A DNA stretch of 64,000 nucleotides from an uncultured Bacteroidales bacterium (GTDB taxonomy: Bacteria; Bacteroidota; Bacteroidia; Bacteroidales; UBA932). How positions within the stretch are numbered: the stretch's first letter is position 1; every line of letters starts with the position of its first letter. A program made the position numbers and the translations under genes. The notes beneath the pieces were generated by a model. The model saw only the letters and a list, made by a program, of their open reading frames with translations, was not told where the DNA came from and searched no databases. The DNA is taken from positions 46,636 through 110,635 of the forward strand of contig ONCE01000017.1 of the NCBI GenBank assembly GCA_900316245.1, read 5' to 3'. Below, one piece after another: positions 59,265 to 63,284 of this stretch.

Positions 59265-60260
59265 ATGACCGGTGAATGTAAAATAGTGTCAGGAAGCCTT
59301 CTCCGGGAGGTTGCGGCCCTTCTGAAGGGGGAGCCGGAACTCTATGTGGTCTACGACGAAAACGTGGCCTGGGTAGCCGGCGAGGTTGAAAAAGCGGTGC
59401 CGGTGAAAGGCGCCTGGAGCCTGAAGACTTCCGAGGAACTCAAGACTTTGGAAACCGTCCAAGCCCTGTGCCGGAAGCTGATGAAGGCCGATGCATCCCG
59501 CAAGGCCTTCCTGCTGGCCGTGGGCGGCGGCATTACCACCGACGTGACGGGCTTTACGGCCGCCATCTACAAGCGCGGCATCCGGTACGCCAACCTTCCC
59601 ACCACGCTCCTGGCGCAGGTGGACGCTGCCATCGGCGGCAAGACCGGCGTCAATCTGGATGGCTACAAGAACATGCTGGGCGCCTTCCGGATGCCCGAAT
59701 TCACCTTCCTCTGTGAAGAAGTTCTGAGGACCCTCCCGCCCCGCGAGTTCCGCGCCGGAAAGGCCGAAATGCTCAAAACCTTCCTCCTGGGAGATGCCAA
59801 GGCCTACGAAAAGGCCCTGACCGCCAAGGAATGGCAGCCGCTCATCCAGCGCGCCGCAGAAATCAAGGCCGATGTGGTCCGTCAGGACCCCGAGGAGCAC
59901 GGCATCCGTGCCAAGCTCAACCTGGGACACACCTTCGGCCACGCCATCGAGCACGAGGCGCAGGAAAGGGGAGAAAGCATCCACCACGGGGAAGCGGTGG
60001 CGATGGGAATAATCCTGGCCGCCCGCCTGGCAGAGCGCAGGGGTCTGGCCCAAAAAGGCCTGGAGGCCCGCATAAGGGCCGATTTCAAGGCCGCCGGCCT
60101 CCCCACAGAGTGCCCCTATCCCCTGGAAACCCTGGCGCAGGCTATGGAGAAGGACAAGAAAGCCGCCGGAGGCCGCGTCAAATGGATTCTGCCCCTGGCT
60201 CCCGGCCAAGTGGAGATGGAGGAAATGACCGTAAAAGAAGCAATGGATGATTTGCGTTAG
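59265..60260 (+). CDS. aroB: 3-dehydroquinate synthase
   Basis: Second step of the shikimate pathway, DAHP to 3-dehydroquinate, using NAD and a metal. 331 residues. GGGITTDVTGFTAAIYKRGI (NAD loop), TTLLAQVDAAIGGKTGVN, metal ligands in KAEMLK, GHTFGHAIEH and HHGEAVAMG. Overlaps the fused aroD-aroA gene by 14 bases. Confidence 0.95.
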   Translation: MTGECKIVSGSLLREVAALLKGEPELYVVYDENVAWVAGEVEKAVPVKGAWSLKTSEELKTLETVQALCRKLMKADASRKAFLLAVGGGITTDVTGFTAAIYKRGIRYANLPTTLLAQVDAAIGGKTGVNLDGYKNMLGAFRMPEFTFLCEEVLRTLPPREFRAGKAEMLKTFLLGDAKAYEKALTAKEWQPLIQRAAEIKADVVRQDPEEHGIRAKLNLGHTFGHAIEHEAQERGESIHHGEAVAMGIILAARLAERRGLAQKGLEARIRADFKAAGLPTECPYPLETLAQAMEKDKKAAGGRVKWILPLAPGQVEMEEMTVKEAMDDLR

Positions 60261-62217
60261 CCTTCAAAATAAAGACTATCAGGAGATTCTGGAAATCCTG
60301 AAAACGGTGGAGATGGCGGAGATCCGCCTGGACCGCTGCGCCCTGGAGGACGAAGAGATAGAGGCTCTGTTCGCGGATTCCGACGTGCCGCTCATTGCCA
60401 CCTGCCGCCTCAGCGAGGAGCCGCAGGCCCCCGAGCTGTTGGAGCTGGCCATCCGCTCCGGCGCCAAATATGCAGACCTGGAGATGGAAGCCCCCGCCGC
60501 CGTGGGCCGCCGCATCCGCGAAGCCTGCCGGGAGTACGGCTCCGTCCTCATCCGCTCCTACCACAATTACGAAGACACCCCCTCCCTGGAAACGCTCCAG
60601 GCCCTGGTGGAAAGGGCCCGCACTTTTGGGGGAGAAGTGGTAAAAATAGTAACTACAGCCCATTCTGAGGCCCATAACGCCACGGTGGCCGCCCTGTATA
60701 AGGACGCCGTCCCCGGCTCGCTGGTAGCCTTCTGTATGGGAGAGGCCGGCAAGGCTTCCCGCCTGGACGCCCTGCGCTACGGCGCCCCCTTCACCTACGC
60801 TTGTCTAAGTAAAGAAGACGCCACCGCCCCCGGTCAGTGGACCTGGGAGGAAATGAAAGAGGCTGTGTATAAAGACTTTCGCTTTGTAAAGGCCGAAGCC
60901 CTGCCTCTGCCTTCCTCCAAAAGCTTTGCCCAGCGGGCCATCATTGCCGCCGCTTTGGCGGAGGGAACCTCCCATCTTTCCGGCTACACGCCCTGCGGAG
61001 ACAACGAAAGTGCTATAAACGTGGCAAAATCGCTGGGTGCAGAAGTAAAAATAGACGGTAACAAAATTGTTATCCGCGGGATCGGAGCCACGCCCGGCTC
61101 CCTGAATCTGGAGCAGTTGCACTGCGGCGAGTCCGGCTTCCTGACCAGGCTGATTATCCCCGTTTTATCGGTTGTTTCAAAAAACAAAGTGCGTATTTCA
61201 GGAGAAAAAACCCTCTTGAACAGGCCTCTGACCAGCGCTCACGACATCATGGCGTCTTTTGGCGTCCGACTCTATCCCGAAGGAAACAACGAAAGAAAAC
61301 AAGATTGTTACCTGCCTTTGACGGTCTCCGGCCCCCTCATTGCCGGCCGCGCGGACGTCTCCGGAAAGGGCGGTTCGCAGCTCATCTCGGGTTTGCTGGC
61401 CGCTTTGCCGCTTTGCGAGGAAAAATCGGCCCTTTATGTCCACGATCCGCGCAGCATTCCGTATCTTTTCATCACGGTGGACGTGCTCAAAAAGTTTGGC
61501 ATCCGGATGAGTTCCGAGATGGAAGGCGGAGACGATTTCCTGGAAACGCAGGACTGGGCCCTCTGCACCGGCGTCAACTTCCACATCAAGGGCGGACAGC
61601 GCTACAAGGCGGCCGATTTTGCCATTGAAGCCGACTGGTCCGGCGCCGCTCCCTTCCTGGTAGCGGGCGCCATCTTTGGAGATATCGAAGTAGAAGGGCT
61701 TGATACAGAGAGCCTTCAGGCCGACATTTCCATTATGGATATCCTGATGGAGGCCGGAGCCAGCATGTCCCAGCTGGACAGCCCCGGCGGCCCCATCCAC
61801 GTGCGCCGCGCTCCGCTGAGTCCCTTCCATACGGACCTCAACAACTGCCCCGACCTCTTCCCTATGGTCGCCGTGCTGGCGGCTTTCTGCCCCGGCAAGA
61901 GCCACATCCTGGGGGTAGAACGCCTCAGACACAAAGAAACCGACCGCGCCGCCGCCATCGAGCAGATGCTCACCCAGATGGGCGTGCCCGTTCAGATAGA
62001 AGAAGATGAAATGACCATAGAGGGCATGGGCCTTACCCAGCGCATCCTGGAAGGGAAGCTGCTGCGGGGCGGCCGATACGTTTCCCACGCAGATCACCGG
62101 ATGGTGATGGCCCTCAAAGTGGCCGCCCTGGGAGCCAACGGCCCCATAGAAATTGATGACACGGCCTGCGTGGCCAAGTCTTTCCCCTCCTTTAATGAAT
62201 TATTTGACAGACTATGA
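60247..62217 (+). CDS. aroD-aroA: Fused 3-dehydroquinate dehydratase (type I) and EPSP synthase
   Basis: 656 residues with two enzymes in one chain. Residues 1-about 205: type I dehydroquinase barrel, with the general-base His in RSYHNYEDTPS and the Schiff-base Lys in VVKIVTTAHS. Residues about 212-656: EPSP synthase, with PSSKSFAQRA (PEP/S3P Lys), GEKTLLNRPL, SGKGGSQLISG, RHKETDRAAA and SHADHRMVMALK. These are pathway steps three and six; aroE and aroK are not nearby. Start MICVSL follows directly from the aroB overlap. The last codons overlap aroC by 4 bases (ATGA). Confidence 0.92.
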   Translation: MICVSLQNKDYQEILEILKTVEMAEIRLDRCALEDEEIEALFADSDVPLIATCRLSEEPQAPELLELAIRSGAKYADLEMEAPAAVGRRIREACREYGSVLIRSYHNYEDTPSLETLQALVERARTFGGEVVKIVTTAHSEAHNATVAALYKDAVPGSLVAFCMGEAGKASRLDALRYGAPFTYACLSKEDATAPGQWTWEEMKEAVYKDFRFVKAEALPLPSSKSFAQRAIIAAALAEGTSHLSGYTPCGDNESAINVAKSLGAEVKIDGNKIVIRGIGATPGSLNLEQLHCGESGFLTRLIIPVLSVVSKNKVRISGEKTLLNRPLTSAHDIMASFGVRLYPEGNNERKQDCYLPLTVSGPLIAGRADVSGKGGSQLISGLLAALPLCEEKSALYVHDPRSIPYLFITVDVLKKFGIRMSSEMEGGDDFLETQDWALCTGVNFHIKGGQRYKAADFAIEADWSGAAPFLVAGAIFGDIEVEGLDTESLQADISIMDILMEAGASMSQLDSPGGPIHVRRAPLSPFHTDLNNCPDLFPMVAVLAAFCPGKSHILGVERLRHKETDRAAAIEQMLTQMGVPVQIEEDEMTIEGMGLTQRILEGKLLRGGRYVSHADHRMVMALKVAALGANGPIEIDDTACVAKSFPSFNELFDRL

Positions 62218-63284
62218 ATACTTTTGGAAATAAATTTAGAGTCAGCATTTTTGGCGAATCTCACGGAGAGAGAATCGGTGTTACCATAGACGGCGTCCTT
62301 CCCGGCATTCCGCTGGAAGCGAAAGACTTTGCAGAGGACCTGGCCCGCCGCAAGGCCGGCGCCCTGGGCACCACTCCCCGCCTGGAGGCCGATGAGCCCG
62401 AGATTGTAAGCGGCGTGTACCAGGGAAAGACCACCGGTGCCCCGCTTACCATCCTCTTCAAGAACGAGAACACCCGCAGCGAAGACTACGAGCAGTTCCG
62501 GAAACACCCCCGCCCCGGTCACGCAGACTTCACGGCCAATCTCAAGTTTGGCGGATTCAACGACCCCCGCGGCGGCGGCCACTTCAGCGGACGCATTACC
62601 CTGGGCGTTGTGGCAGCCGGCGTCCTGGCCAAAAAGATGCTCTATTTTGCCCAGTTCCAGGCCCGCCTGGTCAAGGTGGGCGGCCTTACGGATGCAGCCC
62701 AGTGGCCGGAGGCCCTGAAGGCCGCGCAGGCCGAAGGCGATTCCCTGGGAGGCGTAGTGGAATGCACCGTGAACGGGCTTCCCATCGGCCTGGGAGAACC
62801 CTTCTGGAACAGCGTTGAAAGCCAGATTTCCCACGCTGTCTTTGCCATTCCCGGCGTCCGCGGCATCGAGTTCGGAGACGGTTTTGCCGCCTCGGATATG
62901 AAGGGCTCCGAGCACAACGACCTCTTCCCGGAGCACGAATGCTGCGGCGGACACCACCACGAGGACGGTGAAGAGCACCATTGCTGCCACGGAGAGCACG
63001 AGGAAGGGCACGAGTGCCAGTGCCACGGAGAGCACGAAGGCGGCGAGCACCACTGCTGTGGCCGCCACAAGCACCCCCAGCCGCCTGTGACCAATCACGC
63101 CGGCGGCGTGAACGGCGGCATCACCAACGGCAATCCGCTGGTCTTCCGCGTGGCCTTCAAACCCACCGCCAGCATAGCCAAAGCCGGCATCCCCGGGCGT
63201 CACGACGTGTGCTTCGCCCTTAGGACACCGGTCATCGTAGAAGCCATGGCCGCCATTGTGCTGGTGGACCTGGCGCTTGGCTAG
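62214..63284 (+). CDS. aroC: Chorismate synthase with a His/Cys/Glu-rich insertion
   Basis: Last shikimate step, EPSP to chorismate, requiring reduced FMN. 356 residues. The conserved parts are intact: FGESHGERIG, RRKAGALGTTPRLEAD, HPRPGHADF, GGGHFSGRI, GSEHNDLF and NHAGGVNGGITNGNP. Between GSEHNDLF and the TNHAGG motif, residues 240 to about 291, lies an insertion with about 15 His, 8 Cys and 12 Glu, built from 12-14-residue repeats (EHHCCHGEHEEG, HECQCHGEHEGG, EHHCCGRHKH). Such clusters bind Zn, Ni or Cu in other proteins. Usual family members have a short loop here. Convergent overlap with the next gene. Confidence 0.93.
   Translation: MNTFGNKFRVSIFGESHGERIGVTIDGVLPGIPLEAKDFAEDLARRKAGALGTTPRLEADEPEIVSGVYQGKTTGAPLTILFKNENTRSEDYEQFRKHPRPGHADFTANLKFGGFNDPRGGGHFSGRITLGVVAAGVLAKKMLYFAQFQARLVKVGGLTDAAQWPEALKAAQAEGDSLGGVVECTVNGLPIGLGEPFWNSVESQISHAVFAIPGVRGIEFGDGFAASDMKGSEHNDLFPEHECCGGHHHEDGEEHHCCHGEHEEGHECQCHGEHEGGEHHCCGRHKHPQPPVTNHAGGVNGGITNGNPLVFRVAFKPTASIAKAGIPGRHDVCFALRTPVIVEAMAAIVLVDLALG
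62973..63070 (+). repeat. 36-bp tandem repeat coding the metal-binding insertion
   Basis: The 17-base string starting TGCCACGGAGAG occurs at 62985-63001 and 63021-63037, 36 bases apart, and GAGCACCA(T/C)TGCTG occurs at 62973 and 63045, 72 bases apart. The period equals 12 codons and keeps the reading frame, so the insertion grew by in-frame duplication. Confidence 0.75.

Follow-up and report, generated by a model that had tools for sequence, protein, structure and literature searches.

A histidine- and cysteine-rich tract within chorismate synthase of a gut Bacteroidales lineage, a candidate metal-binding appendage

The DNA analyzed here, called the window below, is a 64,000-nucleotide stretch of one contig from an uncultured Bacteroidales bacterium. 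Near its end lies aroC, the gene for chorismate synthase (AroC), which follows two other aro genes and carries an in-frame insert rich in His and Cys codons. The features discussed are given with their positions in the window.

59265..60260, plus strand: aroB, 3-dehydroquinate synthase (PF01761 and PF24621), lying upstream within one series of overlapping genes
60247..62217, plus strand: aroD-aroA fusion, type I 3-dehydroquinase and EPSP synthase (PF01487 and PF00275)
62214..63284, plus strand: aroC, chorismate synthase, 356 aa (PF01264; TIGR00033), the sole copy found in the genome
62904..62921, plus strand: GSEHND motif, residues 231-236, upstream of the insert (translation and alignment)
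62925..63089, plus strand: His/Cys/Glu/Gly-rich tract and PQPPV hinge, residues 238-292 (translation), with its core at 62931-63086
62985..63001, plus strand: 17-nt direct repeat, copy 1 (exact repeat search)
63021..63037, plus strand: 17-nt direct repeat, copy 2, 36 bp downstream of the first (exact repeat search)
63090..63119, plus strand: TNHAGGVNGG motif, residues 293-302, downstream of the insert (alignment)
63159..63206, plus strand: shortened C-terminal loop KPTASIAKAGIPGRHD, residues 316-331, 16 residues long against 30 in most relatives of the tree set

Apart from the insert, AroC is predicted from its sequence to be a normal, intact chorismate synthase with FMN-dependent activity. 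PF01264 matches residues 8-355 along the whole profile (1-327 of 327, E = 4.6e-98), and no second Pfam domain, GroES included, matched the window's AroC at E ≤ 1. The NCBIfam model TIGR00033 scored 285.6 bits against a cut-off of 212.2, and NF003793 fell slightly below its own (309.5 against 321). This is the single PF01264 match in the whole genome, which is 92.8% complete. The GESHG, RPGHAD, NGG and GRHD motifs are all present, and residues G298, G301 and G302 are invariant in a 59-row AroC alignment; G301, in the NGG motif, presumably touches FMN. Fold and conserved motifs are those of an ordinary chorismate synthase (PF01264). The differences are a linker of 68 residues between GSEHND and AGG, where most have 20-24, and the C-terminal loop of 16 residues instead of 30. 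The end of aroD-aroA and the start of aroC share 4 nt, and the neighboring aro genes give no pointer to a metal role.

The insert sits between GSEHND (from residue 231) and TNHAGG (from residue 293), which agrees with the preliminary description of this DNA, where it was placed between two conserved segments. The translation also bears out the composition given there, with 15 His, 8 Cys and 12 Glu in residues 240-291 (62931-63086). The His+Cys fraction of the tract is 0.41. Among all window frames of at least 100 codons, in any frame, the tract is the top 54-residue stretch for His+Cys, with 24 such residues. The runner-up, with 18, comes from a minus-strand frame near position 316 which overlaps a longer ORF of the same strand. 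This frame and a plus-strand frame at 1-885 were considered as a second His-rich gene and rejected as spurious; both overlap a 313-aa minus-strand ORF at 1-939, which we take by eye to be membrane-protein-like and similar to a Na+/H+ antiporter. When the 54-residue tract peptide was searched across the genome at E ≤ 10, AroC was the sole match, and the tract peptide alone matched nothing in Pfam, NCBIfam or the PDB. Short CCHGEHE-like matches elsewhere are in mild excess over the control: the DNA pattern for CCHGEHE, with up to 3 mismatches, gave 68 matches in 11 genomes, and its reversed form gave 28. Seven of the 68 are in AroC, and all others have at least 2 mismatches.

The preliminary description had the insert encoded by 36-bp in-frame repeats. 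One exact 17-nt pair does lie 36 bp apart, and the tract DNA holds further 16-nt repeats that are 81-88% alike, but Tandem Repeats Finder found no array at the tract even at its lowest threshold, and the repeat structure was overstated for the window. Clear tandem copies of the 36-bp unit are found in one relative (L034), where the first two are 97% identical over 36 nt.

AroC sequences were taken from loci on named contigs and in congeneric genomes, and a tract was scored over all loci as at least 10 His+Cys. Such tracts were found at 58 loci, corresponding to 40 distinct AroC, all at the same site and with lengths of 28 to 92 residues. The four motifs above are complete in 36 of these 40; three deviate by RPGQAD alone, and one is a partial frame. 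In the three, the near-invariant His of RPGHAD (window residue 103) is replaced by Gln (L033, identical to L127 and L183; L036, identical to L184; and L179). We take residue 103 to correspond to His110 in S. pneumoniae chorismate synthase, which lies close to flavin N1. The row set was made without ten loci whose frames are broken or partial (L045, L053, L082, L137, L131, L136, L080, L134, L135 and L138), without duplicates and without six rows whose motifs were missed by the search expressions. In rows lacking an insert, the linker that joins GSEHND to AGG mostly has 20-24 residues, with a maximum of 33 and a few rows at 9. The 25 tract rows have linkers of 40-104 residues that contain 12-37 His+Cys.

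With a profile built from ten tracts, matches were found in 39 of the 400 genomes searched within the genus. In a family sample, 10 of 398 genomes matched, all from 1 of 25 genera, and in an order sample 1 of 393 did, representing 1 of 206 genera. These counts are lower bounds because the profile misses the known tract genomes G003 (of group B, described below), G028, G051 and G054. Neither the family sample (25 genera) nor the order sample (206 genera) contained a profile match in any genus beyond the window's own. Thirty profile-matched loci were read, a set that leaves 9 of the 39 matched genomes outside it; 29 have the tract inside the AroC frame, and the frame of the other (L182) is broken. 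Where tract contigs state a source, the records give a ruminant stomach chamber (L033, L039, L040 and L045-L048). Within these samples, the tract belongs to one gut-bacterial lineage that is largely ruminant-associated. The mapping of orthologs proposed in the preliminary description, now carried out, shows that the insert is common to many related species and absent from other relatives.

The end of aroC lies about 700 bases from the end of its contig (C32, 110,635 bases), a position that could favor an assembly or gene-calling artefact. However, the same type of tract occurs at the same site, in frame, in many separately named assemblies and contigs. Since 40 distinct AroC carry such a tract at this site, the tract is not an assembly artefact, and we consider an artefactual origin of any kind extremely improbable. 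The preliminary description had named insert-less close relatives, together with a local artefact, as grounds for giving up its claim. Insert-less relatives do exist, but the tract recurs across independent assemblies, so that these grounds do not apply. Broken AroC frames, in the linker or elsewhere, were seen at L082 and L137 (G033), L131 (G045) and L182 (G186) and reflect sequencing error or decay.

The history of the tract was followed on two AroC trees. The quick tree contained 89 AroC with the linker and the C-terminal loop removed; L050 and L077 were restored, while rows without a recognized C-terminal loop (except L060, which was kept and set by hand) and 11 far rows were left out. In this tree, 20 tract rows, including the window, form group A, and 5 form group B, which is nested among the no-tract rows L050, L051, L056 and L057. 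At least 3 tract changes are needed, the third being the no-tract rows L054 and L132 within group A. The careful tree had 58 rows, after nine more were left out and the rest thinned. Here, L054 and L132 fall beside the main group and L052, on a long branch, falls outside it, again giving 3 changes. By eye, the L052 tract looks like a mix of group A and group B tracts. Forcing all 25 tract rows into one clade cost 48 log-likelihood units and was rejected (p-AU 0.0146). The tract is scattered over at least two AroC groups, and both separate gains and a single gain followed by segment exchange fit the trees.

The shortened C-terminal loop was considered as a change for which the tract is a replacement, and this was rejected as an obligatory connection: group B combines the tract with a long loop, and six no-tract rows have the short loop (L049, L126, L054, L070, L077 and L132). 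Because no-tract rows also carry it, the short loop is not tied to the tract. In L054, L070, L077 and L132, the short loop goes together with a linker cut to 9 residues, and these AroC are only about 292-295 residues long.

The tract site is an insertion hot spot, as L113 and L119 hold unrelated linkers there, of 67 and 78 residues with 1 and 3 His+Cys. One stretch of the L119 linker, GAERSEAFERPEV, may represent a further repeat element. In some relatives, a 27-nt repeat, TGTCATTCTGAGCGNAGCGAAGAATCT, forms part of the tract itself. It is dispersed and palindromic; at up to 2 mismatches, 16 genomes hold 1 to 86 copies each, where the reversed-pattern control gave none. Its copy number is very uneven between related species (for example G028, G038, G062 and G064), and it is nearly absent from the window's genome, where the single copy, with 2 mismatches, lies on a different contig (C31). 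No copy was found in the window's own tract within 5 mismatches. At that same limit, the repeat occurs within 9 of the 40 distinct tracts, and in all 9, which are not 9 independent events, its sense frame reads CHSERSEES or nearly so. The forms CHSEHGEESHEC (L166) and CHSEDGEESHEC (L035) are intermediate between this element and CHGEHEEGHEC. Because basal group A tracts (L042 and L125) are without the element, it was probably added later. The inserts of L113 and L119 were also considered as copies of TGTCATTCTGAGCGNAGCGAAGAATCT and rejected, with best matches of 11-14 mismatches in 27. The tract would thus change length through its own repeats and, in some relatives, through in-frame capture of an element that happens to encode CHSERSEES, with selection retaining the His/Cys content.

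These observations raise the possibility that the tract is functionless, a tolerant surface loop that gathers low-complexity repeats and captured palindromic elements. The unrelated inserts in L113 and L119, the 9-residue linker of L054, L070 and L132, and the presence of a dispersed repeat in 9 of 40 tracts all favor such neutral filling. There is also a precedent in the palindromic elements of Rickettsia, one kind among the in-frame MITE fusions of bacteria. In Rickettsia, too, a dispersed palindromic repeat lies in frame inside conserved genes and enzymes, and on the one enzyme tested it is described as neutral or slightly harmful (accessible text of PMC2229807). The AroC case differs in that the repeat is only a 27-nt part of some relatives' tracts, that the window's tract is without it and that composition is kept. 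The constant use of the sense frame giving Cys, His and Glu (9 of 9, the events not all being independent) speaks against neutral filling, as does the occurrence of the tract in more than one AroC group.

The composition of the tract bears on the same question. Over the 40 distinct tract AroC, the His+Cys fraction has a mean of 0.38 and a standard deviation of 0.035. In a neutral simulation starting from the window's tract, it dropped to 0.23 after 0.3 substitutions per site, and neutral mutation halved it within 0.3-0.5 substitutions per site; drift would therefore erase the steady value near 0.38. The ratio pN/pS was calculated without gaps for 23 equal-length pairs of tracts. The five pairs that are at least 75% identical gave 0.03, 0.03 and 0.06 (group B) and 0.11 and 0.18 (group A), although three of the five come from one close group B set and are non-independent, and choosing by identity favors low pN. 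One close pair, for example, has 19 synonymous and 2 non-synonymous differences. In four of the five, Cys is unchanged (76 of 76 cells), and neutral p values range from 0.011 to 2e-11. This four-pair test was limited to pairs whose upstream lengths were equal and whose identity reached at least 75%, and neither limit was imposed on the count of 23. The four pairs are 0.94-0.97 identical in register, and shifting one copy brings the identity down to 0.32 or less. For the 18 remaining equal-length pairs, pN/pS was 0.30-1.01, and many of them are probably out of register. Over 190 group A pairs, pN/pS was 0.25 for the tract and 0.23 for the core, in a gapped alignment that favors low pN. The codons of the tract vary (397 CAC and 181 CAT; 236 GAG and 187 GAA). 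Since synonymous codons vary, it is the peptide rather than the DNA that is kept.

The tract is apparently under purifying selection, with evidence that is good but comes from few close pairs; together, pN/pS and composition are the main evidence pointing to a role at the peptide level. Neutral filling gains some ground from the fact that the case for selection rests on five close pairs while the 18 looser ones are ambiguous. It is disfavored by the present data, and we regard it as a rather unlikely explanation that ranks third among those considered. The tract is dispensable in some lineages, because the close relatives L054 and L132 have a 9-residue linker and the L125 tract has just 12 His+Cys.

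A structure prediction, which the preliminary description had also called for, returned a well-folded core with a low-confidence tract. The AlphaFold2 model, made from 59 sequences, has a mean pLDDT of 85.5. Outside the tract, 22 of 31 ten-residue blocks reach a pLDDT of at least 90, while the five tract blocks lie at 44-63, with values below 50 at residues 245-249, 256-258, 260-274 and 276-281. Against the PDB, the model had 28 matches at E ≤ 0.001, all 28 described as chorismate synthase. According to the model, the tract is probably a disordered loop on a well-folded enzyme core.

The end of the hinge precedes the invariant G301 by 9 residues and the GRHD aspartate by 39, and this closeness favors a role for the tract as a switch, in which metal binding or thiol oxidation would alter the loop leading into the NGG motif and tune AroC. 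Cys-rich sequence is redox-sensitive, which would suit such a switch. The accessible text of PMC3509576 describes chorismate synthase as absolutely dependent on reduced FMN, and substrate binding as closing the flavin off from solvent. On the other hand, linkers of 40 to 104 residues would be odd for a precise switch, and the low-confidence tract model does not give contacts. We place a switch second, as a possible but unlikely role. A bolder version, in which the tract senses metal or oxidant, opens or shuts the FMN site and thereby couples aromatic synthesis to metal status in anaerobic gut bacteria, having arisen more than once, is more doubtful still.

The explanation that we place first is that the tract is a selected, disordered His/Cys-rich appendage on a tolerant loop of AroC that binds metal as a cytosolic buffer or store, and we give it about an even chance of being right. 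The kept His/Cys-rich make-up fits metal binding, as proposed in the preliminary description. Because of the composition of the tract and its Cys-Cys-His clusters, soft or borderline transition metals are indicated; clusters such as CCH..H..HEC would likely bind Zn, Ni, Cu or Co. Metal binding, the buffering role and the identity of the metal are all deduced from sequence, and in this proposal a housekeeping enzyme would carry the buffer or store. AroC is not known to have any role with metals.

His-rich stretches occur in HypB and SlyD, both of which handle nickel, and Hpn is a dedicated binder. The preliminary description had compared the insert with HypB and SlyD, and the likeness in composition holds: these proteins, Hpn and Hpn-2 all share a metal-binding type of composition with the tract, which is different in being also Cys- and Glu-rich. 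The extension of HspA, the GroES of H. pylori, is nearer, and by analogy it may serve as the closest working counterpart of the AroC tract. The accessible text of PMC3856676 reports that this His- and Cys-rich extension binds nickel in vitro, that Hpn and Hpn-2 are nickel binders with a suggested role in nickel storage and detoxification, and that a paper cited there named the Cys-Cys motif of Hpn and HspA a metal anchoring site. As far as that text goes, HspA resembles AroC in being a conserved housekeeping protein, the sole member of its family in the cell, with an unusual His/Cys-rich extension. The HspA extension is at the C-terminus of a co-chaperonin, whereas the AroC tract is an internal loop of a flavin-dependent biosynthetic enzyme. 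Unlike the former, the tract is partly repeat-built, variable in length and present in more than one AroC group, and its metal binding is a prediction.

A direct functional parallel of HspA would be a nickel store for hydrogenase maturation. Full-length HypB was found in 23 of the 27 genomes that have the tract and in 21 of the remaining 53 (Fisher p = 1e-4), where the 53 include three genomes without a recovered AroC and a fourth with its first half only, and where 19 of the tract genomes had been hand-chosen, partly by completeness, out of 35 further ones matched by the tract profile. In a plain sample of 61 genomes, HypB was present in 7 of 8 with the tract and in 21 of the other 53 (p = 0.019). 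One HypB that was read (L192) is without a His-rich stretch, so a separate nickel store could be useful. However, on the tree used for the ancestry-aware test (69 of the 80 genomes), there are 2 changes of the tract against 14 of hypB, and independent pairs are powerless. Because the tract changes just twice, ancestry alone can explain the association. Two tract genomes paired in the tree (G028 and G402) have no HypB match, and two others (G057 and G034) have HypB without the tract; the genomes compared are incomplete. The link between the tract, nickel and HypB is suggestive and confounded by ancestry, and a nickel store of this kind appears improbable. Fur-family regulators (PF01475) were found in all 14 genomes examined and do not discriminate by tract.

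Among the open-licence papers listed for the enzyme, titles and the beginnings of abstracts pointed to no chorismate synthase with such an insert. Nothing was found there on Cryptobacteroides with histidine-rich proteins or on His-rich metal-binding inserts in housekeeping enzymes, and the repeat string TCATTCTGAGCG was found in no open-licence paper. The accessible part of PMC7144000 contains nothing on the AroC linker. His/Cys-rich metal-binding extensions on housekeeping proteins are already known; what is new is an internal, partly repeat-built and maintained one in AroC.

If the tract does bind metal, a core biosynthetic enzyme would have taken on metal storage in one gut lineage. This would mean that loop expansion can graft metal buffering onto an unrelated enzyme, an unusual second job for an everyday enzyme, and that a dispersed repeat supplies raw material to a maintained protein segment. 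With linkers of 9, about 20 and 40-104 residues, and tracts in more than one group, the lineage offers a natural series for measuring both what such a graft costs and what benefit it brings.
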